Shown one piece after another: positions 7,037 to 56,690 of a stretch of DNA of 60,271 bases (the stretch's first letter is position 1; every line of letters starts with the position of its first letter). The translations under genes were made by a program, and so were the position numbers. The DNA is from a virus: IMG/VR virus record IMGVR_UViG_3300008261_000124, positions 1-60,271 of that record, one strand, 5' to 3'. The notes below the pieces were generated by a model. The model was not told the origin of the DNA and did not search any database. It saw nothing but the letters and a program-made list of their open reading frames with translations.

Positions 7037-7874
7037 AAAGTCTATGCTTATTAGACCTTCTAACAGGTCAACAGACTTCATTAGTCCAAGCTTTGGACAT
7101 GGTTGCTTAGGTTTCAACTGTAGTTATTGTTATATGAAAAGACATAAACCTACAGGTTTAACAGTAGCCACTAACACAGAAGATATACTTACAGCTATTG
7201 ATCATCATTCTTGGTTTGCTGATGTAGAGAAACCTAATCAAACTCATGATGAATATATAAGCTACGACATCTCTTGCAATGAGGACCTAGCTTTACATTT
7301 AAAGTATCATGAGTGGAAAAAGATTTTTGACTTCTTTAAGAATCACCCAAAAGCTATGGGATCTTTTGCTACTAAGTATGTAAACAAAAAACTGCTTGAA
7401 TATAATCCAGAAGATAAAATTAGAATAAGATTTAGCTTAATGCCTCAAGTATATGCTGATCAGTTGGAACCTAATACTAGTAGTATAGAAGAAAGAATAA
7501 AAGCTATTGACCAGTTTATTGATGCTGGATATGATGTGCACATAAATTTCTCTCCTGTAATAGTTACTAAAAATTGGTTATTAGAGTATGAAGAGTTGTT
7601 TATTCAAGTTAATAGCTTTGTAAAGAATAAAGAAAAGATCAAAGCCGAGGTAATATTTCTTACTCACAATGAAGGTAAGCATCAGTATAATCTAGCCAAC
7701 AATCTACCAGGAGAAGATCTATTATGGAAGCCTGAGATACAAGAAGGTAAGATTTCACAGTATGGTGGAGAAAATATTAGATATAAACATGATCTCAAAG
7801 CTGAGTATATAAGACAGTGGACCGAACTACATGATAAGATACTCCCATGGAACACTATTCGGTATTGCTTTTAA
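7017..7874 (+). CDS. Radical SAM protein, spore photoproduct lyase/SplB-like
   Basis: Radical SAM enzymes bind a [4Fe-4S] cluster through three cysteines; the SplB family repairs UV thymine dimers or modifies nucleic acids. Near the N-terminus (residues 30-38) the protein has GCLGFNCSYCY, followed by MKRHKPTGL, a placement typical of SplB-like proteins. The spacing is CX4CX2C rather than the canonical CX3CX2C. The central SPVIVTKNW and DAGYDVHINFSPV segments resemble the barrel strands of that family. Length is 285 aa with the ATG at 7017; a GTG at 7014 is also possible. A DNA repair role is likely but unproven. Confidence 0.7.
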   Translation: MVEKVTRKSMLIRPSNRSTDFISPSFGHGCLGFNCSYCYMKRHKPTGLTVATNTEDILTAIDHHSWFADVEKPNQTHDEYISYDISCNEDLALHLKYHEWKKIFDFFKNHPKAMGSFATKYVNKKLLEYNPEDKIRIRFSLMPQVYADQLEPNTSSIEERIKAIDQFIDAGYDVHINFSPVIVTKNWLLEYEELFIQVNSFVKNKEKIKAEVIFLTHNEGKHQYNLANNLPGEDLLWKPEIQEGKISQYGGENIRYKHDLKAEYIRQWTELHDKILPWNTIRYCF

Positions 7875-22710: not shown

Positions 22711-23057
22711 TGTCACACCCGTATGACCACAGCCGTTCCTCAGCAAAGAAGTGGGGTGGTGATCCTGAAGAATACTTGAAATATCATGAGTGGTTTGATG
22801 AAACTAAAGCTTGGGTAGGTCATAGTGTTCACAGGATGTTTAGACACCATTCAGAAGGTATATTTGAATGTGAGAAAATATTTGGAAAGTTTTTCTATAA
22901 CTCTGTAGGCAAAAGAGTATATATAAGATATATAGGAGAACAGCATGTCAAAGAAGACTGCAATGGTCATATTCCTTCTGCTAAAGAATGGGTAGATGCT
23001 ATTAATAATAAAGAAACACCACTATGGATGTTAAAGACACAAAAAATAGAAGATTAG
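22710..23057 (+). CDS. DUF6915-like protein
   Basis: The product is 115 residues. HPYDHSRSSAKKWGGDPEEYLKYHEWFDETK, followed by RMFRHHSEGIFECEKIFG and EQHVKEDCNGHIPSAKEWVD, matches the DUF6915 layout I recall, with many conserved His and Asp residues that could bind a metal. Function is unknown. Confidence 0.6.
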   Translation: MSHPYDHSRSSAKKWGGDPEEYLKYHEWFDETKAWVGHSVHRMFRHHSEGIFECEKIFGKFFYNSVGKRVYIRYIGEQHVKEDCNGHIPSAKEWVDAINNKETPLWMLKTQKIED

Positions 23058-23482
23058 TTTCTGATATTGTCATTGATGAAGATCAATATAAGAATTTACT
23101 GAACATGTTGAATTCTACAGAACAAGATGCTGTAGTAGCTTTAAATGTAATAAATAACTTAAAGGTTGATAAAAATCTTATACAAGTTTTATTTCTCAGA
23201 AAGGAATCAGCTTGTTCAAATGATTATTGGAATATACATTGTAGTAAGCATATAAAGTATCATAAAAATACAAGTGTAATAACAAACCCTAATTTAATTA
23301 CTTATGCTAATATATTTAAAATACTAAATCAATTTACATTTTCATCAAAGAAAGATAAAGAACAAGCTTTGATTTTTTATACTAAAAGATTAGAAAATTT
23401 TCTTATTAAAAATCTATTAGGTTTTGAGGATGTAATAGATAATTTTTCTATAAATGTAAAAATAAAAGATAATGACAAATAA
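23024..23482 (+). CDS. Protein with a helical repeat shared by two nearby genes
   Basis: The product is 152 residues. About residues 22-58 read YKNLLNMLNSTEQDAVVALNVINN, then LKVDKNLIQVLFL. This matches, in length and pattern, segments in the proteins at 27328 and 27812 (L..ML.S.d..n..A...i.n....k). The rest is basic and unrecognised. It overlaps the metallopeptidase gene by 11 bases, so it probably belongs to the MoxR-VWA unit. Confidence 0.55.
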   Translation: MDVKDTKNRRLVSDIVIDEDQYKNLLNMLNSTEQDAVVALNVINNLKVDKNLIQVLFLRKESACSNDYWNIHCSKHIKYHKNTSVITNPNLITYANIFKILNQFTFSSKKDKEQALIFYTKRLENFLIKNLLGFEDVIDNFSINVKIKDNDK

Positions 23483-24982
23483 AGCAGAACAATTAGCAAA
23501 AGCTAGTAAAGATTTAATGCTAAAAGAACCTTTCTATGGTTTGTTTCTTACAATGCTTAACAAACAATGGAGTGATAAAGTACCTACTGCTGGTGTTAGT
23601 AGACTAGGTATTAACTATCAACTTTATTTGAATGAAGAGTTTTGGGCAACATTAGATCCTAATAAGAGAATTGGTTTACTCAAGCATGAGCTCAATGTAA
23701 GGGTTCCTTATGCAGTAATGTATAAGTAAAATGTCTTAAATTGTCGGGAACTACCTTAGAGCTTTACACACCAAGCATATATAGTAATATAATATGTGGC
23801 CAGAATAATTACCTGGGTATGGTAAAAGAGGTGAAGATTGGTATATCCGCAGCCAAATTTCTTGGAAGTATACCAAGAAAGAGGTTCAACGACTACAATA
23901 GACCATCCTGTGAAGGATGAAGGTATAGTCTGATCTCATGTGAAAATATGAGTTAACATAAATGATTACACATAGGTTTCTTTCACATAACAGATTTTGA
24001 GCATCTTACAAATAAGATGATTGCTAATATAGCTTTTGATCTTGAGATAAATCAATTTATTGATAAAGACTCTTTACCAGAAGGTGGTATGACAATAGAC
24101 TTGTTTCCAGATCTTAAGTTAGAACCTAAAAAGGGTAGCAAGTATTATTATGACAAGTTATTAAATGCTGCTAACAATCCCGGTACTTGTAGTACTGTAG
24201 ATAAGATGATGCAAGCTGCTGGTGATGGAGAAGGTGAGATAGAAATTGATATAGATAAGCAAGGTAATGTAAAAGTAAAATTACCTAATCATGATACTTG
24301 GCAAGAGTTTGAAGATCTTGATGAAGCAACTAAGAAGTTGATTAAAACTCAAACAGAACATATCATAAAAGAAGTAGCTGATCAGGTTGTAAAATCTAGA
24401 GGTACAGTACCTGGTGAGTTTAAAGAAATACTAGAAAGACTAGAAGCTTTAGATCCTCCTAAGTTTAACTGGAGAGGATTCTTAAGAAGATTTGTTGGTG
24501 GTAATATTAGACACAATACTAGATTATCAAGACACAAACCTAATTTTAGATTTCAAGACAATCCTGGGTTAAAACATAAATATAAGAAAAATATTCTTGT
24601 TGCTGTAGATACTTCAGGTTCTGTACATACAGAAGAACTTAAGGAGTTCTTACATGAGATATATCATATACAAAGAAGTGGTACAGAAGTAACTATTGTT
24701 CAATGTGATAGTGCTATATCTCATATAGAGAAATTTGATCCTAAGAAGGAATTTAAAATAAAAGGTAGAGGAGGCACTAGCTTCCACCCGGTCACAGATT
24801 ATTATGACCAACATTTTAGAAAGTACAACTGTTTAATATACTTAACAGATGGGGAAGCACCAGCTCCTGATAAATGTAGAGGACCTGTATTATGGGTTAT
24901 CTCTAGTCAGTCCCAAGGACTAAATAAAGATTTAAAAGGTTTACAAATTCAATTACCAAAAGATTATGGCAACAGCAAATAA
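23472..24982 (+). CDS. VWA/HExxH putative metallopeptidase interrupted by a group I intron
   Basis: Exons 23472-23692 and 23965-24982 join to 412 codons. The junction falls between the second and third base of codon 74 and rebuilds HELLHIGFFH (residues 72-81), a zinc HExxH site that neither exon has alone. The C-terminal part is a von Willebrand A domain with the MIDAS motif DTSGS (289-293) and a GGTSF segment. This architecture resembles VWA-like putative metallopeptidases (DUF2201/VWA-like pair) that work with MoxR ATPases. The adjacent gene is such an ATPase. The intron-retained product ends after codon 85 with a wrong tail. Confidence 0.8.
23693..23964 (+). mobile_element. Group I intron (272 bases, no endonuclease gene)
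   Basis: Core elements are visible in order: P-like AATTGTCGGGAACTACC (about 23739-23755), Q-like CCGCAGCCAA (about 23848), R-like GGTTCAACGACTA (about 23883-23895) and S-like ATAGTCTGA (about 23923); ACTA/TAGT pairs form P7. The last exon base before it is T and the last intron base is G, as group I rules require. Removing it restores the reading frame and the HELLH motif. It lacks an endonuclease gene, so it may be immobile or mobilised in trans by the neighbouring one. Confidence 0.85.
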
Positions 24983-27326
24983 CAAAATTAGCATGAACTC
25001 TGAAGAGTTAAAATCATTATTAACATACATTCATAACAATAATAAAGTATTGTTAGAGAAGAACTTACCTGTACAGACTGTAAATGTAGAAGGTGAAGCA
25101 GGTGGTGGTAAGACTTCTACTATTCTTCAACTAGCTAATGAGTTAGGATTGGATATGATACGTAAGAACCTCGCGGAGCTTGAAGATGTGGCAGATCTTA
25201 TCGGGTTTCCGTGCAAGGAGCATGAGATGATTGGTAAAGACAACTCTGTTAGATGGGTTGTAGAAGGTACTATGCCTCAGTATATTCAAGCAGGTTATAA
25301 ACCAACCGGTGAAAAGAGAATGACACATGCTGCTCCAGATTGGGCACAGGGTAGAGTTGCTCCCGTTCTATTGTTATTAGATGATTATAGTCGTTAAATT
25401 AAATTTACTAGATTTTTATTATCTAGCACTAAAATTAGTATATTTGTAATAAATATTTATTATGAATAAACTATTTAATTCAAAATTAACAAGTTATAAA
25501 AATAAATCAGGTGTATATCTATTAAAGATAAAAGAAAATTATTATGTTGGTAGTTCTATTAATCTTATAAAGAGATTAGAAAGTCACAAAAGTAAATTAA
25601 AATTATTAAAACATGAAAATATATACATACAAAGATGTTTTAATAAGTATGGTAAAAAAGAATGTTTTTTCTCAATACTTGAATTTTGTGAACCGGATAT
25701 AAGACTGATAAAAGAACAATTTTGGATTAATACCTTAAATCCAAAACTAAATCTTAAACCAAATTGTTTAACTCAACAAAACTGTATTACTACTTCTAAA
25801 CCTGTATTTCAATATTCTCTTAATGGAGAATTTATTGCAGAATTTCCATCAGTCAGAGAAGCTGAAAGAATTCTTGGTATTTCAGGTATAGGAAATGTAG
25901 CTAGAAAAGTAAAATCTTATTTTAAATCTGTAGGAGGTTTTTTATGGGATTATGAAAAAAAAACAAATCTTAGTTATACAAATAACAGTAAGAAAGCTAA
26001 AATAAAAGCAGTTACTATGTATAATAAGGAAGGTATAAAGATTAAAAGTTTTGAATCAATAGCAGATGCAGCAAGATATATATTAAAACCAGAAGATAAT
26101 TTTGATGGTTTATGTGCATGTATATCGAGTGTAGCTAAAAATAAAGGTATTTTAGTAAAAGATAAATATAGATATTCTTATGATAATTTAGAATTTCTTA
26201 AACCTTTGGTACTTAAAAGAAATTATCCCATATTGCAATGTGATACATCAGGAAATATTATTAAAGAATGGGAATCAGCTATTATAGCTGCTGAATCTTT
26301 AAATATATCAACAGGTGCAATTAGATTAGCATTAAAAGGAAAAATAAAATTATGTAAGAATTCTATATGGAAAATCAAGATGTAGCGTCTATTAAAAAAT
26401 CCTGTGAATTGTCTGGAAAAGCATAGAAATATGCCAATCAGCAGCCAAGCTGTTTAGTAATAAACAGAAGGTTCAACGACTAGTGTATGGAATATAGTCT
26501 GAACTGCAAATATAAAAGACTAAATTGCAGAATCTAAGGATAAAGAGCCTTAGAGATAACAAAAATGGCATCAGAAAAGTTTATTCAAGCGACCATGACT
26601 CTCCTGGAAACACAATGTTATGGTAGCTGGTGTTTACCAAAAGGTTCATTAATTGTTCTTACCTCAAATCCTGATAATGGCAACTATTCTGTTAGTGCAT
26701 TGGATGGAGCTCAAAAGACTAGGGTTATTAATGTAAACTATAAGTTTGATGTTAATGTATGGGCAAGATATGCAGAGAAAACTGGTATTGATGGTCGTTG
26801 TGTAAACTTCTTGTTATTACACCCAGAGTTAATGGAAGGTGAGAATGTTAATGCTAGAACTGTAACTATGTTCTTTAATAGTTTAATGTCTATCAAGAAT
26901 TTTGCAGATGAGTTACCTCTTATTCAGCAGTTAGGTGAGGCATGTACTAATCCAGAGCTTACTACTTTGTTTACTACATTTATCAATAACAAGTTGGATA
27001 AGTTAGTTACTCCTAAAGATATGTTACTTCATGACAATGAATCTTATATTATAGGTGAACTAAACAGTTGTATTGGTAAAGATGGAAACTATCGTGCAGA
27101 TATTGCTAGTGTATTAGCAACAAGGTTGATTAACTTTACTTGTACTTATTCTGATAATAACTCAATAACTCAAAAGATTACTGACAGACTTATCAAATTC
27201 TCTACAGAAGATATATTTACTACTGACCTTAAATATATTATTGTAAAACAAATACTTAACTATAACAAGCAGAAGTTCCAAAAACTTATGCTTAATCCTG
27301 AAGTATTAAAGATGACTATGAAATAA
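24966..27326 (+). CDS. MoxR-type AAA+ ATPase interrupted by a group I intron
   Basis: Exons 24966-25394 and 26568-27326 join to a 395-residue protein. Walker A is GEAGGGKT (43-50). Exon 1 ends in VLLLLDDYSR, the Walker B strand, and exon 2 continues ASEKFIQATMTLLE. LIVLTSNPDNGNYSVSALD is the sensor segment. MoxR ATPases pair with VWA proteins as chaperones or maturation factors; the VWA partner is the preceding gene (17-base overlap). The insertion lies exactly after the Walker B aspartates, so unspliced RNA gives an inactive 143-residue product. Confidence 0.85.
25439..25446 (+). promoter_or_regulatory. TATATTTG box inside the intron
   Basis: A perfect -7-like element 15 bases before the endonuclease ATG (25462). 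A CTAGAT/ATCTAG hairpin lies just upstream. It may let the endonuclease be transcribed separately from the host gene. Confidence 0.4.
25462..26385 (+). CDS. Intron-encoded GIY-YIG homing endonuclease with NUMOD repeats
   Basis: The product is 307 residues. The GIY-YIG nuclease domain opens SGVYLLKIKENYYVGSSINLIKRLESH, with catalytic Arg in KRLESH and a Glu in KEQFWINTL. Three repeats of NUMOD1/HTH type follow, near residues 113-165, 193-250 and 253-306 (KPVFQYSLNGEFIAEFPS, KAVTMYNKEGIKIKSFES, YPILQCDTSGNIIKEWES), which recognise the target DNA. It would cut intronless MoxR alleles and spread the intron. Confidence 0.9.
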   Translation: MNKLFNSKLTSYKNKSGVYLLKIKENYYVGSSINLIKRLESHKSKLKLLKHENIYIQRCFNKYGKKECFFSILEFCEPDIRLIKEQFWINTLNPKLNLKPNCLTQQNCITTSKPVFQYSLNGEFIAEFPSVREAERILGISGIGNVARKVKSYFKSVGGFLWDYEKKTNLSYTNNSKKAKIKAVTMYNKEGIKIKSFESIADAARYILKPEDNFDGLCACISSVAKNKGILVKDKYRYSYDNLEFLKPLVLKRNYPILQCDTSGNIIKEWESAIIAAESLNISTGAIRLALKGKIKLCKNSIWKIKM

Positions 27327-27327
27327 T

Positions 27328-27807
27328 ATGGAAGAACAAGCAGTATATACACCACTGGTAGCTACCCCTGTTGAGGGGGAAGCTCCAGTATTAAATGAAG
27401 ATACATACAATACATTGTATGGGATGCTAAAAAGCCCAGATGAAGGTAATCATAAAATGGCACAACTTATTTTAAATAGTTGTGATATCAAAAAATCTAT
27501 TTATTGGATTTGGATGTTAGCAAGGACTGGATATGTTAGTAGAATGGTAAACTTAAGAACAAAAGCTAGTAGAGCTTTTAGAGATCATAGTAGATTATTC
27601 TATATATGCAATAAAAATGAACTAGCATTTGCTGAGTATTGTGTAAGAGAAGGTGGATTAATGACACCAGAAATCTTTAAATATTTAGAAGATGCTATTA
27701 TACGTAAAGCTAAGTTTCAGTTTAAACACACTTTCTATGATGTACAATTTAAAATAAAGGAAGAGTATAAAGATCTTCCTGCTAATGTTGAATTTATAAA
27801 TAATTAA
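27328..27807 (+). CDS. Protein with a helical repeat, MoxR neighbourhood
   Basis: The product is 159 residues. Residues 26-62 read YNTLYGMLKSPDEGNHKMAQ, then LILNSCDIKKSIYWIWML, the same pattern as in the proteins at 23024 and 27812. The rest is helical and basic. It starts one base after the MoxR gene. The shared repeat suggests a common partner. Function is unknown. Confidence 0.6.
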   Translation: MEEQAVYTPLVATPVEGEAPVLNEDTYNTLYGMLKSPDEGNHKMAQLILNSCDIKKSIYWIWMLARTGYVSRMVNLRTKASRAFRDHSRLFYICNKNELAFAEYCVREGGLMTPEIFKYLEDAIIRKAKFQFKHTFYDVQFKIKEEYKDLPANVEFINN

Positions 27808-27811
27808 AAAG

Positions 27812-28930
27812 ATGAATTTTAAGAAAACAATTTTACTAAACGGTGGTTTTAATTCTCAAAATAATTTTATAGTAAATAAGTACTATTTATCAGAAGATGA
27901 GAATCCATTTAATATTTTTAAAGATAATTATGTTTCTACCCCAGGAAATATACTGTATATTTATCCTAATTCTACAATTCCTAGATTTAAAGTAAAAACT
28001 TTTTGTGAAAATAACAAAGTATCTTTAACAAAGAACAAAGAAAAAGCAAATGCTATTTTTGCTGACCCTTCATCACTAATAGATAATTTATTTGAAAGAA
28101 AAGGTTGGTTAAGAAAATTAAAAGTATCAAGTTTAAAACATTATCTTGATCATTATGTGCTTGTGCAAGATGTTAGATTTGATTCCATTAGACAATTTTT
28201 AAATGAAGTAGAAACTGATTTTGTATTATGTAATTATCAGTTTATGAATTCTGTTCTTGAGGGTAGGAGTGGTATTCCAAAGTATAATTTTATTAAGTAT
28301 GATGATGTTGTAGATGAGGGTAATCCTACTACTTTAAATAATCTCTGGGATTATACTTATACTTATGATCAAAATTTATTATTACCAGAAGATAATTATC
28401 AAGAATATATATATCTTGTGAATAATTTTCATAATATTTATCATCAAGATGCTTTATTAAAAATAATTAATACAGGTACCATAATTGATAAAGAGTTATA
28501 CGAAGGTCTAAACAGCATGCTTAAAAGTACAAATAAATCAGATCATGTTGTAGCAATGGAAGCTATGGCAAATGCTGATTATTTAAAGTCTGCTATATAC
28601 TTGTTATTATTATTTAAAGAGTATAATCGTGTAATGTTTGATAATCAAGCAAGATATCATGTAAACTTTAAAAGTTTGTGCAATTTCTTTAATATTAATC
28701 ATAGATCTAGAATTAGTATAGATAATATAGTAAATAAATTAAAAGAAAAAGAAGTTCTTACTACTAAGAATCTATACATGCTTTTAGATATGGTTACTGA
28801 AGAAGTACAAGATCATGGTAACACGGCCTGTTTTAAAATGACTGGAGTAGCTCCTATACCAGAACTAGTAGAAATAGCTAAGCAAACAGATGCTAGATTA
28901 GAAAAACCAGAAACAATAGAAGAACTATGA
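27812..28930 (+). CDS. Larger protein with the shared helical repeat
   Basis: The product is 372 residues. The N-terminal about 180 residues are alpha/beta and unrecognised (ILYIYPNSTIPRFKVKTFCENN). Around residues 225-275 it has LYEGLNSMLKSTNKSDHVVA, then MEAMANADYLKSAIYLLLL, the shared repeat. A CNFFNINHRSRISIDNIVNKL helical segment follows. It overlaps the exonuclease by four bases. Likely part of the MoxR-VWA module, by position. Confidence 0.55.
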   Translation: MNFKKTILLNGGFNSQNNFIVNKYYLSEDENPFNIFKDNYVSTPGNILYIYPNSTIPRFKVKTFCENNKVSLTKNKEKANAIFADPSSLIDNLFERKGWLRKLKVSSLKHYLDHYVLVQDVRFDSIRQFLNEVETDFVLCNYQFMNSVLEGRSGIPKYNFIKYDDVVDEGNPTTLNNLWDYTYTYDQNLLLPEDNYQEYIYLVNNFHNIYHQDALLKIINTGTIIDKELYEGLNSMLKSTNKSDHVVAMEAMANADYLKSAIYLLLLFKEYNRVMFDNQARYHVNFKSLCNFFNINHRSRISIDNIVNKLKEKEVLTTKNLYMLLDMVTEEVQDHGNTACFKMTGVAPIPELVEIAKQTDARLEKPETIEEL

Positions 28931-31053: not shown

Positions 31054-31212
31054 ATGAAAAAGAACCATTATGTAATAGACTACGAGACTCTTATAGACTG
31101 TACTGTCCTTGTAGCTGAGCACTATAAAGAAAACATAATTCACACATTTGTTATAGGCCATCTTAAAAATGATATGCAGGACTTGTACATAAGAAAGCTC
31201 AAGATGTTATAA
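31054..31212 (+). pseudogene. DNA polymerase fragment: Exo I part only
   Basis: The product is 52 residues: MKKNHYVIDYETLIDCTVLV, then AEHYKENIIHTFVIGHLKNDM. The DYET is the Exo I metal site of a family B polymerase proofreading domain. The frame stops at 31210. Codons for the following exonuclease part resume in another frame (from about 31197, AQDVINRQENKEFSEF). The stretch normally holding Exo II (F-N-x3-F-D) is missing, so this looks like a deletion or assembly gap rather than a normal short gene. Confidence 0.6.
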
Positions 31213-31343
31213 ACAGACAAGAAAATAAAGAATTCTCAGAGTTTAGTGAAAGAGATTTATCTATAAGACAGATAGATGTATTCAAGTTAAACCACTGGGA
31301 CAATCCGGCTAAAAGATCTAGTCTTAAATGGATACAATATTCT

Positions 31344-32339
31344 ATGGATTGGCACAATATTCTTGATATGCCTATTCACCATACAACCAGTGTTACTACT
31401 CAAGAACAACTTGATACCGTGGTAACTTATTGTATTAATGATGTAAAGTCTACTAAACAAATTATGAATCTTAGCAAAGATCAAATTAATCTTAGAAAAG
31501 ATCTTACTAAAGAGTATGGTATTAATTTATTTAGTGCTTCAGAACCAAGAATATCTAAAGAGTTATTCTTAATGTTTCTAAGTCAAGAAACTGGAATAAA
31601 AAAGTACGACTTAAAAAATCTTAGAACTAGAAGAGATTATATAAAAGTATCAGATATAATACTACCTTATACTAAATTTAATCATCCAGCTTTTCAAAAT
31701 TTACTTTTAAACTTTAAAGGTTTAATAATAAATGCTAAAGATACTAAAGGAGGATTCAAATATAGTTTTAACTATAAAAATGTAAAAACTGATTTTGGTC
31801 TAGGCGGTGCTCATGGTTGTACAGCTTCTGGAGTATATGAAGCTAAAGATGGTATGATCATCATGAGTTCTGATGTCACCAGCTTTTATCCTAATCTAGC
31901 TATTAGAAACAAGTGGTCTCCTGCTCATTTACCTAAAGATATCTTTTGTGATAAGTATGAATGGTTCTTTGAGGAGAGAAAAAAATTACCCAAAAAAGAT
32001 CCTAAAAACTATGTTTATAAAATTATTCTTAATTCAACTTATGGTTTAAGTAATGATGAGAATAGCTTTCTATATGATCCAGAGTTTACCATGAGAATTA
32101 CTATCAATGGTCAATTAACTCTGATGATGCTGTATGAAATGTTATCTGAAGGTATACCAGGATCTATTCCTCTAATGCAAAATACAGACGGTGTAGAGAT
32201 GATGATACCTGAACAATACAAACAGAAGTATATGGAAATATGCTCAGAATGGGAAAAGATAACGCAGCTTAACCTAGAACATGATGAGTATAAGAAAATG
32301 GTGATTAAAGATGTTAATAACTATATAGGAATATATTAA
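31344..32339 (+). CDS. Family B DNA polymerase, palm fragment
   Basis: The frame is open from 31173; the first ATG is 31344. Exo III appears as TYCINDVKSTK (29-38). Polymerase motif A is DVTSFYPN (177-184), motif B is KIILNSTYGL (226-235) and motif C is MQNTDGVEMM (278-287), where the first Asp of the usual DTD is Asn. The gene ends KDVNNYIGIY and continues in the gene at 33013, cut by a GIY-YIG endonuclease gene. It should copy phage DNA together with its C-terminal part. Confidence 0.82.
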   Translation: MDWHNILDMPIHHTTSVTTQEQLDTVVTYCINDVKSTKQIMNLSKDQINLRKDLTKEYGINLFSASEPRISKELFLMFLSQETGIKKYDLKNLRTRRDYIKVSDIILPYTKFNHPAFQNLLLNFKGLIINAKDTKGGFKYSFNYKNVKTDFGLGGAHGCTASGVYEAKDGMIIMSSDVTSFYPNLAIRNKWSPAHLPKDIFCDKYEWFFEERKKLPKKDPKNYVYKIILNSTYGLSNDENSFLYDPEFTMRITINGQLTLMMLYEMLSEGIPGSIPLMQNTDGVEMMIPEQYKQKYMEICSEWEKITQLNLEHDEYKKMVIKDVNNYIGIY

Positions 32340-32371
32340 TTAATGTTATTTTTATTAATAACTATATTTCA

Positions 32372-32379
32372 TATATTTG
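32372..32379 (+). promoter_or_regulatory. TATATTTG box before the free-standing endonuclease
   Basis: A perfect -7-like element, 4 bases before the ATG at 32384. Spacing predicts a leaderless transcript. It parallels the box before the intron-encoded endonuclease. Confidence 0.4.
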
Positions 32380-32383
32380 TTAT

Positions 32384-33016
32384 ATGAAAGCTGACATAAA
32401 ACATAAAAATCTATCTGGTATTTACATGATTAGAAACCTAATAAATAATAAAGTTTATATAGGTAAATCTTTAAATATATATGCTAGAATAATTGAGCAT
32501 ACTTATAAATTAAATAAAGGATTATCTGATAGTTCTCATTTACAAAGTTCATGGTTAAAACATGGTTCAAAAAACTTTGACTATTCAATATTAGAAATAA
32601 TTAAAGATACAGATGAAATTGCTAGAAGAGAATTATTTTGGATGCATGCTTTAAAAACTTTAGATAAAAATTATGGTTATAACTTAAGATCTGATAGTGA
32701 TTCTGAAATGATAGTTCATGAATCTACAAGAAAAAAAATATCTAATAGACTTAAGAAAGAATGGGCTAAAGGTATAAGAAAAGATCACGGAAAAAAACTT
32801 TCAGCTAATTGGAAAATAAATCCAGGTAGAGTTCAATTACAATCTAAAGTAATGTCTAAAGTATTAACTAAATATGAATATGTAATAAATGGTAGAAAGC
32901 TTAATTATAAAAGATTAAAAAGATGCGGTTTAAAAAATGTTATAGCAACTTTTTATAAACAAAATAGTAATAAAGTAATTTTTAAAGGTATAGTAATAGA
33001 AAGAATAAAAACATGA
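32384..33016 (+). CDS. GIY-YIG homing endonuclease inserted in the DNA polymerase gene
   Basis: The product is 210 residues. The nuclease domain begins SGIYMIRNLINNKVYIGKSLNIYARIIEH (GIY...YIG, Arg in YARIIEH), with a Glu in RRELFWMHAL. A NUMOD3-like basic segment follows (STRKKISNRLKKEWAKG, then KDHGKKLSANW). No group I core motifs (R/S) are found between 32340 and 33015. Its stop overlaps the next start in ATGA. It splits the polymerase much as MobE-type genes split T4-like phage genes. Confidence 0.88.
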   Translation: MKADIKHKNLSGIYMIRNLINNKVYIGKSLNIYARIIEHTYKLNKGLSDSSHLQSSWLKHGSKNFDYSILEIIKDTDEIARRELFWMHALKTLDKNYGYNLRSDSDSEMIVHESTRKKISNRLKKEWAKGIRKDHGKKLSANWKINPGRVQLQSKVMSKVLTKYEYVINGRKLNYKRLKRCGLKNVIATFYKQNSNKVIFKGIVIERIKT

Positions 33017-33501
33017 TACAGAAAAAAGCTAAGTATAAAGGATTATTTGAGTTTGAAAACATGGCTTTACATAAAAACAAAAGTTTTTTAATCATACCTA
33101 AAGCTTTGAGTGCATACTTTATTGATAACAAATTGCCAGAACAGTTTTTACAAGAAAATAGAAATATACTAGACTATTGTGCAGGTGTAAAAATCAAAGG
33201 TGACTGGGAATTTCAACAGACTTGTGTTATTGATAGAGAAATAACAAGACAAACCTTACAGAAAACACTTAGATATTATATATCAAATAATGGTTGTAAA
33301 ATTTATAAAGTAAATAAATCTGACAAAAGAGAAATACAACTTGAATCAGGCAAGTGGATGCAAACTTTATTTAATGTATATAAAAATAAAGCTTGGGAAG
33401 ACTATAACATAGATGAGTCCTATTATTTGGACAAAATCTATAGAGAGATTAATAATATTATACCTAAAGTTAGTAAACAACTTAATCTTTTTGAACAATG
33501 A
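33013..33501 (+). CDS. Family B DNA polymerase, C-terminal (thumb) fragment
   Basis: The product is 162 residues, MIQKKAKYKGLFEFENMALHKNKSFLIIPKALS. The KAKYKGLFEF beta segment normally follows the NNYIGIY end of the palm fragment directly, so the two ORFs were one gene. It has its own ATG, overlapping the endonuclease stop by four bases, so the polymerase may assemble from two chains. The C-terminus KQLNLFEQ resembles a sliding-clamp-binding peptide (QLNLF). Confidence 0.75.
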   Translation: MIQKKAKYKGLFEFENMALHKNKSFLIIPKALSAYFIDNKLPEQFLQENRNILDYCAGVKIKGDWEFQQTCVIDREITRQTLQKTLRYYISNNGCKIYKVNKSDKREIQLESGKWMQTLFNVYKNKAWEDYNIDESYYLDKIYREINNIIPKVSKQLNLFEQ

Positions 33502-51473: not shown

Positions 51474-54400
51474 TTAACACAATTTGTTTATAAAGTTATT
51501 TTTAGCTTCTTCTTTAGTAAGCTTGTTGTTGTATACTGTTTGATTTTGAACTATTGATTTTTTATTTTCAAGTATAGTATCATTATCCTCAGTAGTTACA
51601 TTTATAGATTTAGGATCTACAACCCCTTGTATAACAGTTGATAAATCTTCAATTTTTATAGTTACATCACCTGATATCGGAGAAGATAAAGTTACAGTTT
51701 TTTTGTTGATTTTACTAATTTTATAAGGGTTTGGAGTTACTTGACCAAAAGGAGTATATAATACCTCATAGCCTCTTTCCTTAGCAATAGTTAAATTATC
51801 AACATTAATATTTTTATTTATAGATTCAAGAGTTACAGTTTCAGATTTAAACTCTTTAGAAGGTGTATTTTCTCTTACATATCCAAAATTTTGAGATTTA
51901 ATATTACCATCTTTATCAAATCTATAAATAGCTAATACTTCTCTAAGTTTACCTTCTATTTCTTTTGTGATTTTTTTAATAGCAAACTTTTCACCTACAG
52001 GTTGTACAGTAGTAGTTTTACTAAGATCATAATTAGGAATAACCCTTACTACTCTACCATCATCTAATGTTATTTGATATGATTGATCAGTATATGTTCC
52101 ATAATCTCCTATAGAAAAAGTGCCGGTTAAAGCAGAATCTCCCTGAAGTTCTGAAGATAAAGCTTTAAACTTTTCTTCAATAGACATGTCATTAAAAGCC
52201 TGAGTATCAACAGGTTGAGCAAAAGTTAATGTAGAAACAGTTACTTCAGAGGGTTCTTCTTCTATAGCAGCTTCAGTACTTGTAGAAATAGGTAGAGGAG
52301 AAGGTGTAGTTTCAATAACTTCTTTACCAATAGGTTGCAAGTAATCTTCTACTACTTTATCATAAGTAATAGTTGCATTTTTAGCATCAAAAGCATCTAC
52401 AGCTTCTAAAATATTACCATCTAAATCACCTTTAACCTCAATAGGTAACAAAGCTAATTTTTTAACCTGAATACCTAAAAGATCTTCAATCATTTTCTTG
52501 TAAATAGAAAGCTGTAATGTATAAGCTTCTTTTTTCTTAAAACTATCTTTTTCAGTTCCAAACTTTGTCCAGTCACCGGCAGTTTTAATATCATAAATTT
52601 TAAAGTTTCCATCTTTATCTATAACAAGTAAATCAAGCTCTCCGGCAACTTTTTCTTCTTTACCTTTTACATTATATCTACCAAAAGGAACAACATTCTT
52701 AGCTACAATAATCTCACCTCTTTCTTTAAGTTTTTCTCTAACCTTAGTTAAAGCATCCACTATACCACGGTAAGCAGCTTCACTCACAGACTTAGGTTTC
52801 CTAATTGGTTTACCATCAAAAAAATCTCTAGCAAGCTCATCAACTACATTACCTCTATCTTTAGCCTCACTATAGATTATATCATTTAGTGTTTTTTTGA
52901 AGTTTTCAACAGACTCATCTTTTGATACAGCATCTATTAACTTATTGATTTTATTTTGAGAAAGTCTGTCTTTGTATGTTTTTATTTTCTCTTTTTCTAA
53001 TCTATCTATGATAGAATTAATAAGATTTTTAGCATACTCTAGTTTATATTTGCTTTTTAAAGATATGTCTTTTAAAGCTTTTTCATAATACTCAACTAAT
53101 AGTTTTCCACTTGTTTCAGCATAATTAAACTCTTGAATACCATATATTTCTTTTAAAATTCTATCTTTAAGTTTGGTAGCTCTAAGATTATAATCTTCCC
53201 CAGCAACTACATAACCAGATTGATCATCTTTCTTTTTAGCATCTTTAGATATAGCTTCTAATTTTTTTAAGGCTGCTAACTGTTCCGGAGACATGGCAGC
53301 TTGAAGCTCTTTTATAGCAATAGCATTCTCAAGATTTAAAAGCATGTTTTGTTCATCTTCTGTTAAATCTTTTTTCTTAGATAAAACATCATATTCAGCT
53401 TTAAGTTCATCTAAAGTTTTATCAGCAAATACATCTACTTCTTTAACCTTTTCTTGAGTCTTAATATATTTATTTACTATTGGTCTAACAGTAGGATCAC
53501 TAGTCAACCATTCCTGAAAACTTGTTTCTGGATCAATATATCCTTCAGATTTTTTATATTCATAATCTTCTACAAGTTTATCAATAAGTTCTTGAGGATA
53601 TGTAGAAGGATCATCAGGATTAATACCTTCTTGTTTTTCTTTGGTAGCTTCAGACTTTTTAGCTTCTCTTTTAACTTGTTCTGCTTTTTCTAATAAATCA
53701 AGATGATCCTCCCAAACTTTCATTGCTACTTTATATCTAGCATCATCTGGAGAAATATCTTGTTCTTTATTTTTATCTATAAACCCTGTAATATTAGGAA
53801 TTTCTGTACCATTTACTACAGCATTTTTAATAGCTTTTAAATCTTCAGGTTTTAAAATTAATCCTGTATTTTTATAAATCTCATTTAGGATAATGTTAAG
53901 TTCTCTTCTTCCTGTAAAAACATCATTGTTATACTTTAGTACATTTTCTTTATCGCTTATAATAGTACCAAATACATTTTGAAGTCTTTTTTGAACAGAT
54001 AGGAAACCTTCTGGATTAGAAAGTACATTGATAGATTTTACTAAACTTTTACTTTCCTCACCCAAAAGCATGTGATCTAATACAAGTTGATATGCCTCAT
54101 CTATAGTACTATCAAGTACCATACTATTATTGTCACCAGCTAAATATTTTAAGATTTTATTAAAATCTTTTTTAGCTTCTTTTTTAGCTTCTTCTATAAC
54201 TTCTGAAGATTCACCAAACTTTATTTTACTAGCTGTATCATAGAATTTTTCTATTAATTCTAATCTTTCAGTTTTTTGTTTTTTAACCTTCTTTTGTTCA
54301 GGTATAGATTCATCTAATACAGCTATTTCTTTTTTAAGTGTATTTATTTCTTGAATAGTTCCTTGATTACTCATCAGACTCATAAATGTTTGAGCATCAG

Positions 54401-56690
54401 ATTTTGCTATTTTATTAGCAAGTCCTGAAAAACTCTGAGTCATCTTTTCCATTCTTTCAGACAAATTAGTCAAAGAATGTTTTGAAAATATTAAATCTTT
54501 TTTAGCCTGTTCCCATGCTTGATAAGCTATAAGATTAGCTCTAAATAAAGGATTGTTAGAATCATATTGTTTAAAGTTGAATGGGTTAGGCATTTCATTA
54601 GAAACACTTTCATAAGTATTTCTTATGCTTTCTGCTCTAGAAATTACTTTATCAATATATTTTAAAGCCTGGTTACCATCTTCAATTCCATATTCTTTAA
54701 AAGCATCTTTAGCTTCTTCTGGACTTAAGTTTTTATAGTCTTTGATTTTATTAAGAATGATATCATATTTACCTGTTCTTAAAGCTGTATGTATATGTTC
54801 AAACACAGCTTCATCTTTAATATCTCTTGCTGTTTTTGCATCACCATTTTCTAATGCTTCACTAAGGTCATCAGCCATTTTTTGCTGTTTAACAGCATTA
54901 GCAAGATCTGGAGCCAAGTATGTAACAGCATTTTTATAAAAATCATTTAAGCTATCAACTTCTGTTTTTCTTTGAGCATCTCTTGCAGCTTTTGCTTCTT
55001 TTATTTTTTCTCTATCTTTAAATGCAACAGCTTTAGAGATAGCATAAGAAGGTGCAGACATTACAGGAGATGCAAACATACTCATTGCAAAACCACTGGC
55101 AAAAGTTTCAGCTCCTTGTGCAGAAAACTGATCACTTAAACCTTTCATAAAATATCCCATGTAACCTTCATAGTCAGCTCTTGCTGGATCTTTATACATA
55201 GCGATTGCTTGTTCTGCAGAACCTTTAGAAATAGCTTCTTGTATATTTTCTTGAATACCCTCTGCAAAGTTTCCTTTTAAATAATTATAAGCATATCTAC
55301 CATATACTTTAGGATCTTTTAAAGCTTTAGCTGCTACTTTAGCTCTATTGAAAAAACCTTCTCCGGCTTCAACAAATGTCTTTTTATCAAAAAGTATATC
55401 ATCACTAAATTTAACAAGATTCTTTTTTAAAAGTTTATCTACAGGAGCAAACATACTATTGTAGAAAAATTTATTACTCCACATAATAGCTGGCATATTA
55501 TATAATGCAGTCTTATATGATTGTGTATTAGCAATATTTTCTATTTTTTGTAATTCTTCTCCAGTAGGATCAACCCCGTGTTCATCTCTATATTGTTTAA
55601 TCAAATCTTCTGTAACATCTATCTTGGTCATACCACCTTCAAGCTTTGCTTCAGATACGGCAGCTTTAGTCATCATTACATCTCTAGCAAAACCACCAAA
55701 GGTTCCTACCATTTTTGCATAGTCTGTAGCATAGTCCGTAGCTTTTAAAGCTTGCATAGTATTTTCTAATGGATTAACCATTGTACCAATACCACTTGTT
55801 ATTTTCCCAGCTCTAGTATTCCAAAATGATCTTGCATCAGATACATTGTTTATAGCTCTAAACTCATCAGTAGCTTTACCGGCAGCTTTAGCAGTATCTG
55901 TTATCTTATCACCAACTTTTAATCCTTCAGCTATTTTTTCTGCAGCTTTTCCTGTTCTTGTAAAAATAGAAGGTAATGTAACTTCAGAACTTAAACCTCC
56001 GGTAGCAACAGTAGCTGCTGTCAAGGCTAAATCCTCAGCTAACATTTCTAAACCTATACCAATACTATATCCAGAGTTAAGAAATGTATTAGTTAAAAAT
56101 CCACCAACCCCTCCTTTTGTAGAAGAACCAATCTCCATAGCCCTCTGCATTTCTCTAGCATTTTTAACATCTGGAGCTAAAGGATCTGTAAACATATCAC
56201 CCCAAGTACTAACACCAGATTTTATACCAGTCCAAACTAAAGATGGCCATTGACTAGCTGCTCTAACAAACTCATCTCCAAAAGTCATGTTATCATTATA
56301 AAGACTTTCATTATCTCTATATGGAGAAAAACCAAGATCTTTATATGGTTTAGAGTTATAATATCTTTCAAAATTAGCACCATCAAAATCTCCACTATAA
56401 CTATAAGGTCTCATTATAGAGTAGTCATTTTGTGGAGTTTTACCTAATTTTTCAACAGCAGCATCTAAGTAAGAAACATTTTCTCTACCTGGATTACTAC
56501 CTGATAAAGGGTTCCCAACTACATACTTATAAATATCACTACTTGCTGGTTTAGCAGGCATTGTTACTTTTTGAGTTTCTAAAGAACTCAAAGCATTATC
56601 TAAATAATCTACATTTTGAGTAGAAGGAGATATTGTCTCAGCTGTAGGTTGTTCTACTACCTCCTGAGATTGATTAATTTCTTCTGCCAT
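51474..56690 (-). CDS. Giant cargo protein (1738 aa) with a PD-(D/E)XK nuclease-like domain
   Basis: The N-terminal quarter has several Ala/Gly-rich hydrophobic helices (for example GIGLEMLAEDLALTAATVATGG) and may interact with membrane or capsid channel. Residues about 1300-1430 form a Cas4/RecB-like core: VAGELDLLV (Asp1353), FKIYDIKTAG (Asp1367, Lys1369) and YTLQLSIYKKMIE. The C-terminus is beta-rich. It is 6 bases from the RNA polymerase gene, so is probably packaged with it. Nuclease activity on host or own DNA is possible. Confidence 0.7.
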   Translation of the reverse strand: MAEEINQSQEVVEQPTAETISPSTQNVDYLDNALSSLETQKVTMPAKPASSDIYKYVVGNPLSGSNPGRENVSYLDAAVEKLGKTPQNDYSIMRPYSYSGDFDGANFERYYNSKPYKDLGFSPYRDNESLYNDNMTFGDEFVRAASQWPSLVWTGIKSGVSTWGDMFTDPLAPDVKNAREMQRAMEIGSSTKGGVGGFLTNTFLNSGYSIGIGLEMLAEDLALTAATVATGGLSSEVTLPSIFTRTGKAAEKIAEGLKVGDKITDTAKAAGKATDEFRAINNVSDARSFWNTRAGKITSGIGTMVNPLENTMQALKATDYATDYAKMVGTFGGFARDVMMTKAAVSEAKLEGGMTKIDVTEDLIKQYRDEHGVDPTGEELQKIENIANTQSYKTALYNMPAIMWSNKFFYNSMFAPVDKLLKKNLVKFSDDILFDKKTFVEAGEGFFNRAKVAAKALKDPKVYGRYAYNYLKGNFAEGIQENIQEAISKGSAEQAIAMYKDPARADYEGYMGYFMKGLSDQFSAQGAETFASGFAMSMFASPVMSAPSYAISKAVAFKDREKIKEAKAARDAQRKTEVDSLNDFYKNAVTYLAPDLANAVKQQKMADDLSEALENGDAKTARDIKDEAVFEHIHTALRTGKYDIILNKIKDYKNLSPEEAKDAFKEYGIEDGNQALKYIDKVISRAESIRNTYESVSNEMPNPFNFKQYDSNNPLFRANLIAYQAWEQAKKDLIFSKHSLTNLSERMEKMTQSFSGLANKIAKSDAQTFMSLMSNQGTIQEINTLKKEIAVLDESIPEQKKVKKQKTERLELIEKFYDTASKIKFGESSEVIEEAKKEAKKDFNKILKYLAGDNNSMVLDSTIDEAYQLVLDHMLLGEESKSLVKSINVLSNPEGFLSVQKRLQNVFGTIISDKENVLKYNNDVFTGRRELNIILNEIYKNTGLILKPEDLKAIKNAVVNGTEIPNITGFIDKNKEQDISPDDARYKVAMKVWEDHLDLLEKAEQVKREAKKSEATKEKQEGINPDDPSTYPQELIDKLVEDYEYKKSEGYIDPETSFQEWLTSDPTVRPIVNKYIKTQEKVKEVDVFADKTLDELKAEYDVLSKKKDLTEDEQNMLLNLENAIAIKELQAAMSPEQLAALKKLEAISKDAKKKDDQSGYVVAGEDYNLRATKLKDRILKEIYGIQEFNYAETSGKLLVEYYEKALKDISLKSKYKLEYAKNLINSIIDRLEKEKIKTYKDRLSQNKINKLIDAVSKDESVENFKKTLNDIIYSEAKDRGNVVDELARDFFDGKPIRKPKSVSEAAYRGIVDALTKVREKLKERGEIIVAKNVVPFGRYNVKGKEEKVAGELDLLVIDKDGNFKIYDIKTAGDWTKFGTEKDSFKKKEAYTLQLSIYKKMIEDLLGIQVKKLALLPIEVKGDLDGNILEAVDAFDAKNATITYDKVVEDYLQPIGKEVIETTPSPLPISTSTEAAIEEEPSEVTVSTLTFAQPVDTQAFNDMSIEEKFKALSSELQGDSALTGTFSIGDYGTYTDQSYQITLDDGRVVRVIPNYDLSKTTTVQPVGEKFAIKKITKEIEGKLREVLAIYRFDKDGNIKSQNFGYVRENTPSKEFKSETVTLESINKNINVDNLTIAKERGYEVLYTPFGQVTPNPYKISKINKKTVTLSSPISGDVTIKIEDLSTVIQGVVDPKSINVTTEDNDTILENKKSIVQNQTVYNNKLTKEEAKNNFINKLC

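Follow-up and report, generated by a model that had tools for sequence, protein, structure and literature searches.

In the group 2.2 jumbo phages, a MoxR AAA+ ATPase and a vWA protein form a chaperone pair, and the vWA protein carries a metallopeptidase fused at its N-terminus (Iyer et al. 2021, PMC7824862). In the N4-like phages, gp24 (AAA) and gp25 (vWFA) are core genes (PMC4193335, PMC2784036), and a two-subunit MoxR-type chaperonin has been named in phage 0305phi8-36 (PMC2147016). A preliminary description of the locus analysed here held that such a module was not described in phages; the passage on the jumbo phage pair and the N4 proteins contradict this. In the T4-type phages, mobile group I introns and homing endonucleases are known from td, nrdB and nrdD, and the targeting of critical codons is a known strategy of these elements (PMC2988022, PMC3984707). 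The Delta/Zeta crAss-like phages are intron-rich, and the genes given are MCP, PolB, primase, ATP_43b, TerL and RNAP. The MoxR/VWA module is thus already known in phages, as are group I introns in conserved genes of phages, including crAss-like ones (PMC7886860).

The window, a stretch of 60,271 nt of viral DNA (IMG/VR record IMGVR_UViG_3300008261_000124), carries a module of this kind in which both genes are interrupted, with the following features (a slash after or within a motif marks the insertion point):

23024..23482 (+): upstream flanking protein, with weak similarity (E 3e-4) to the one at 27812-28930
23472..23692 (+): VWA/metallopeptidase gene (DUF2201), exon 1, ending ...KHE-CT/, from the alignment to uninterrupted L001; DUF2201_N
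23693..23964 (+): intron 1, group I, 272 nt, no ORF; boundaries from intronless orthologues, and covariation
23858..23880 (+): P6 hairpin of intron 1, TTTCTTGG...CCAAGAAA, with its loop closed in the window
23965..24982 (+): VWA/metallopeptidase gene, exon 2, LHIGFFH..., with MIDAS motifs DTSGS, GGT and TDG
24966..25394 (+): MoxR-type AAA+ ATPase, exon 1, with Walker A GEAGGGKT and Walker B LLLLDD
25395..26567 (+): intron 2, group I (possibly a derivative), 1173 nt, ending in G; boundaries from intronless orthologues
25462..26385 (+): predicted GIY-YIG/NUMOD1 homing endonuclease ORF, 307 aa (Pfam)
26483..26491 (+): P7-P7' interval of intron 2, 9 nt, where at least 64 nt (P3' and P8) are expected
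26568..27326 (+): MoxR-type AAA+ ATPase, exon 2, ASEKFIQ...
27328..27807 (+): downstream flanking protein, conserved beside MoxR in close relatives
27812..28930 (+): downstream flanking protein, part of it similar to 23024-23482

As the preliminary description had proposed, the VWA and MoxR genes form an adjacent pair that overlaps by 17 bases (24966-24982), and their identity is borne out by Pfam, fold matches and motifs. The spliced products, of 412 aa (VWA/metallopeptidase) and 395 aa (MoxR), can be aligned over their whole length with uninterrupted relatives, L001 being 85% identical. The full-length VWA protein of L001 comprises DUF2201_N and DUF2201 (Pfam, E 1.7e-18 and 6.9e-18), while MoxR is an AAA_5/AAA_3-type ATPase (Pfam) whose predicted fold, from a model of moderate confidence (pLDDT 73), best matches NorQ (E 5.5e-9), including NorQ complexed with the NorD VWA domain, and CbbQ. 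The locus therefore holds a MoxR-class AAA+ ATPase gene beside a VWA gene with a MIDAS, and the two genes are adjacent in nearly all of the relatives that have both. Based on these families, the module is probably a chaperone/protease remodelling pair, in which the MoxR AAA+ ATPase is partnered by the metallopeptidase-VWA protein. The exons are under purifying selection (pN/pS 0.14-0.23); since this includes both MoxR exons, the MoxR gene was functional until recently at least. Additionally, the proteins that flank the module at 23024-23482 and 27812-28930 share a weak common domain (E 3e-4).

Intron 1 splits the Leu codon of the HEL/LH zinc motif (CAT GAG CT/.../A TTA CAC). Its 5' exon ends ...CATGAGCT/, and the intron 3' end is ...AAATG/, with a final G. 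In P1, GAGCU pairs with GGGUUC, which is GGG(U/C)UC across the introns at VWA residue 74 (V74); the ends are thus those of a group I intron, with a 5' exon ending in U, an intron ending in G and a U.G pair in P1. The P3-P9 core contains the P, Q, R and S elements AAUUG.CGGGAAC, AUCCGCAGCC, GGUUCAACGACUA and GUAUAGUCU, and P3 and P8 are present and covary. Eighteen V74 introns share one fold, in which 35 of 77 pairs show compensatory changes; all V74 introns begin after GAGCT or GAACT and end in G. In same-site relatives, the P6 loop is filled by a LAGLIDADG ORF, whereas in the window the P6 hairpin is closed; from this difference, we infer that intron 1 is an ORF-less copy of a LAGLIDADG intron that lost the ORF from its P6 loop. 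A search for compact ORF-less introns at VWA-gene sites found none. Related cores are also found in distant phages, inside or next to other genes, namely Enterococcus iF6 (next to the class III RNR), Vibrio JA-1 and the Staphylococcus PALS_1 lysin. The Rfam group I models detected neither intron 1 nor intron 2, even at E<=10, so the intron calls rest on our own alignments.

Intron 2 splits the MoxR gene at DDYSR/AS, three residues past Walker B. Its ORF matches GIY-YIG (PF01541, E 2.3e-7) and NUMOD1 (E 5.8e-14), and the earlier observation of one endonuclease for the two introns was correct. The elements P, Q, R, S and P9, shared with the MoxR-type introns, in whose 3' core 24 of 31 pairs covary, are all present in intron 2, which follows a U in the 5' exon and has G as its last base. 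The full-length alignments of the spliced products and the compensatory changes in both RNA folds speak against chance as the source of the two intron readings. P3 and P8, present in its relatives, are missing from the window's copy: the P7-P7' interval is 9 nt versus 64-200 nt in the other MoxR-type introns (a short reading in L165 was a false S match and was set aside), and a search for a P3 partner in the window's intron 2 found none. Given the absence of P3' and P8, intron 2 as assembled should not splice; it is possibly a group I intron derivative of doubtful working state, and an assembly loss of ~55 nt is the simplest alternative to a defective intron. The truncated core is present on one contig only, and searches for a second copy found none.

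IMG/VR contains at least 598 MoxR stretches, and our scans of it gave ~170 module-bearing loci. With exons fixed by uninterrupted orthologues (L001, L003, L007, L027 and others), eight intron sites were mapped in the module across relatives (residue numbering of the window):

VWA-gene sites: 74 (HEL/LH), 99 (D/xEIN) and 344 (GG/T of MIDAS)
MoxR sites: 47 (Walker A), 77 (D/LxG), 143 (window only), 145 (6 nt further on) and 155 (ME-L/)

The maximum is three introns per module (L165/166). All of the ORFs checked in the VWA gene are LAGLIDADG, and all of those checked in MoxR are GIY-YIG, based on Pfam LAGLIDADG_3 or GIY-YIG for V74, V344, M77, M145 and M155 and on the motif for V99 and M47. LAGLIDADG (PF14528) was detected with E ~1e-8 in L005, L029, L054 and L012. 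Used as a query, the LAGLIDADG ORF of L054 gave 23/23 matches at VWA residue 74, and the module-bearing matches to the GIY-YIG ORF of L012 were at MoxR 144-145. The two intron lineages are thus partitioned by gene. The preliminary description had called the two introns related; both are group I introns, but their relatives carry different endonuclease families. Its claim that both introns target catalytic motifs holds at HEL/LH and at DDYSR/AS.

Conservation at the intron sites exceeds that at random positions (p 0.0009, a value that rests mainly on V74 and V344), while at M145 and M155 conservation within ±3 residues is no higher than average. A resemblance between the VWA and MoxR homing sites (19/50 matches) was discarded because 9% of random positions equal it, and a 282-nt "intron" at MoxR 88-97 in L029/L083 proved to be an in-frame protein insertion, continuous with the L030-type protein. 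Some 5' exon ends recur at different sites: CGGAT/ or GGAT/ at MoxR 77 (L010), MoxR 145 (L012/L026) and VWA 99, and GAGCT/ at MoxR 155 (L083) and VWA 74. Such matching ends could aid ectopic jumps.

In the scans that were not endonuclease-seeded, 78 of 87 complete modules have no intron and nine are interrupted. On a 153-row tree, the intron state changed at least 15 times at V74, at least 12 times at M145 (with M143) and at least 5 times at V344. On this tree, the sample of which was partly drawn with endonuclease queries, so that co-occurrence is biased, VWA and MoxR introns are not positively associated (2.3 the same way, 6.1 opposite, p ~0.29). A raw excess of double-intron modules had resembled coordination, which this tree-based test does not show. 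Near-identical phages differ in intron state (L029/L083, L136/L138, L026/L027 and L001/L002), and the near-identical L165 and L167 differ by ORF loss from the P6 loop. The last pair, together with the LAGLIDADG ORFs that same-site relatives of intron 1 encode themselves, goes against the earlier suggestion that the small intron depends on the larger one. Random occurrence of the introns in relatives, which the same description named among its refuting observations, is half true, as the sites are far from random and the occupancy is erratic. Next to its module, L026 has two more insertions (1136-2171 and 6671-7229) relative to L027.

The sequence of L012 is mosaic: the backbone is 100% identical to L007, its V344 intron with ~230 nt of upstream exon is 99-100% identical to L136/L137, the exons between its introns have no match among the sampled phages, and the sequence returns to that of L007 ~150 nt past the MoxR intron. 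Both introns are thus contained in one continuous non-backbone stretch of ~3.1 kb. L012 and L013, from different assemblies, agree, which argues against a chimaera. The mosaic is a fresh co-conversion signature, left either by a single event with both introns or by two adjacent events; a three-way comparison of the mosaic weakened an initial reading of it as proof of a single cassette transfer.

The independent presence changes, the lack of association between VWA and MoxR introns, the near-identical pairs with and without introns and the L012 tract argue for independent homing and not for a splicing switch. Very probably, the introns are independently gained and lost parasites of conserved sites, with the module as a landing pad. 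Two group I lineages, unrelated to each other, would be involved: one carrying LAGLIDADG would insert in the VWA gene, at the zinc-motif, D/xEIN and MIDAS sites, and one carrying GIY-YIG would insert in MoxR, at Walker A, D/LxG, the two post-Walker B sites 6 nt apart and ME-L/. The endonuclease of each lineage would cleave alleles lacking the intron at invariant codons, break repair would copy the intron with some flanking exon, and self-splicing of the RNA would leave the host protein intact. Introns would come and go independently, intron 1 being a copy minus its P6-loop ORF, and no regulatory role would be needed, although parasitic and regulatory roles are compatible with each other.

Compatible with independent homing, and concerning the window's copy only, is the reading that intron 2 is dead or mis-assembled, leaving MoxR broken or in two pieces (N-terminal, 143 aa; C-terminal, 253 aa). 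We give this reading an even chance: the partnerless P3 and the shortened P7-P7' interval point to it, as does the in-frame ATG that ends the intron and precedes exon 2, a start for the C-terminal piece, while the purifying selection on the exons and the occurrence on a single contig speak against it, and a 55-nt assembly deletion would look identical.

We regard as unlikely that the ORF-less VWA intron spreads with the linked MoxR intron, the repair of a MoxR cut co-converting the 1.43 kb between them. A MoxR intron is also present in each of the three lineages whose VWA intron lacks an ORF (the window, L026 and L167/168), the two L012 introns share one non-backbone stretch, and phages are known to show both trans and collaborative homing (PMC2988022). 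However, the sampling is biased, as L167/168 were found via a GIY-YIG query and the window was the starting locus; both L012 introns carry endonucleases; the V344 and M145 parts of L012 resemble different phages, so that two events fit equally; and L026 compared with L027 has no divergent tract. A linkage-driven passive co-transfer of the small intron, on the pattern of L012, is possible. We are similarly doubtful that the module is a hub whose two gene-loyal intron lineages, moving between catalytic codons, travel as a linked cassette by co-conversion; if so, ORF-less copies would persist by riding the neighbour's homing, and inter-phage exon exchange would be concentrated in the module. Finally, regulated splicing of both introns that turns the module on as a unit, as initially proposed, is highly improbable, for although both introns break essential motifs and unspliced RNA would give neither full protein, most complete modules (78/87) have neither intron, the introns of the two genes do not co-vary on the tree, the sites differ between relatives and the window's intron 2 looks ribozyme-defective.

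Elsewhere in the window, a DNA polymerase is split (31344-33501): ORFs 31344-32339 and 33013-33501 both have matches in a single polymerase family, and a GIY-YIG ORF (32384-33016) lies between the halves with no room for a ribozyme, like the endonuclease-split genes of T4-like phages. The N-terminal polymerase stretch (31060-31344) reads with an apparent frameshift near 31200. A 1738-aa ORF (51474-56690, -) matches crAss-like RNA-polymerase subunits (33% over ~170 aa, E 1e-19), the only tested sign of crAss relatedness in the 60-kb window; a PDB search gave no match for this ORF or for a 3531-aa ORF.

In PHROGs (phrog_1314) and in many phage records, the DUF2201 metallopeptidase-VWA family bears the label "HNH endonuclease", which is probably a propagated error. 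Because automated annotation splits or mislabels the module genes, phage surveys count too few MoxR/VWA genes.

How does this locus compare with the known systems? The NorQ/NorD MoxR-VWA complex (PMC13036017) provides the best MoxR fold match, and its DxSxS-T-D MIDAS is also found in the window. Its role differs, being metal insertion into NO reductase. To our knowledge, NorD is without the metallopeptidase fusion of the window's VWA protein. N4 gp24/gp25 likewise combine a MoxR-like ATPase with a VWA protein, in N4 within the middle-gene block; in N4-like phages, however, the two genes are not always adjacent. The jumbo phage pair has the same two-gene composition and fusion, with a proposed role in virion assembly with proteolysis, but belongs to another phage group, and the passage on the pair makes no mention of introns (PMC7824862). 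The MoxR and VWA genes are also absent from the genes given for the Delta/Zeta crAss-like phages (PMC7886860), and no paper on introns in MoxR/VWA genes was found in the literature searched, which left most subscription journals outside. With the T4-type introns, the window and its relatives share catalytic codons of conserved phage genes as sites, GIY-YIG, co-conversion, ORF loss and trans homing; they differ in that the host genes are a chaperone pair and the two lineages are gene-partitioned over eight sites. The preference of homing elements for such sites implies that this phage chaperone module, so far little studied, is under strong conserved constraint. What is new is the intensity of a multi-site, gene-partitioned invasion of one chaperone pair, together with the truncated core of intron 2. 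One two-gene module with eight intron sites and many near-identical intron-plus/minus pairs constitutes a natural series, in which homing, co-conversion, ORF loss and same-gene ectopic jumps can be read directly.
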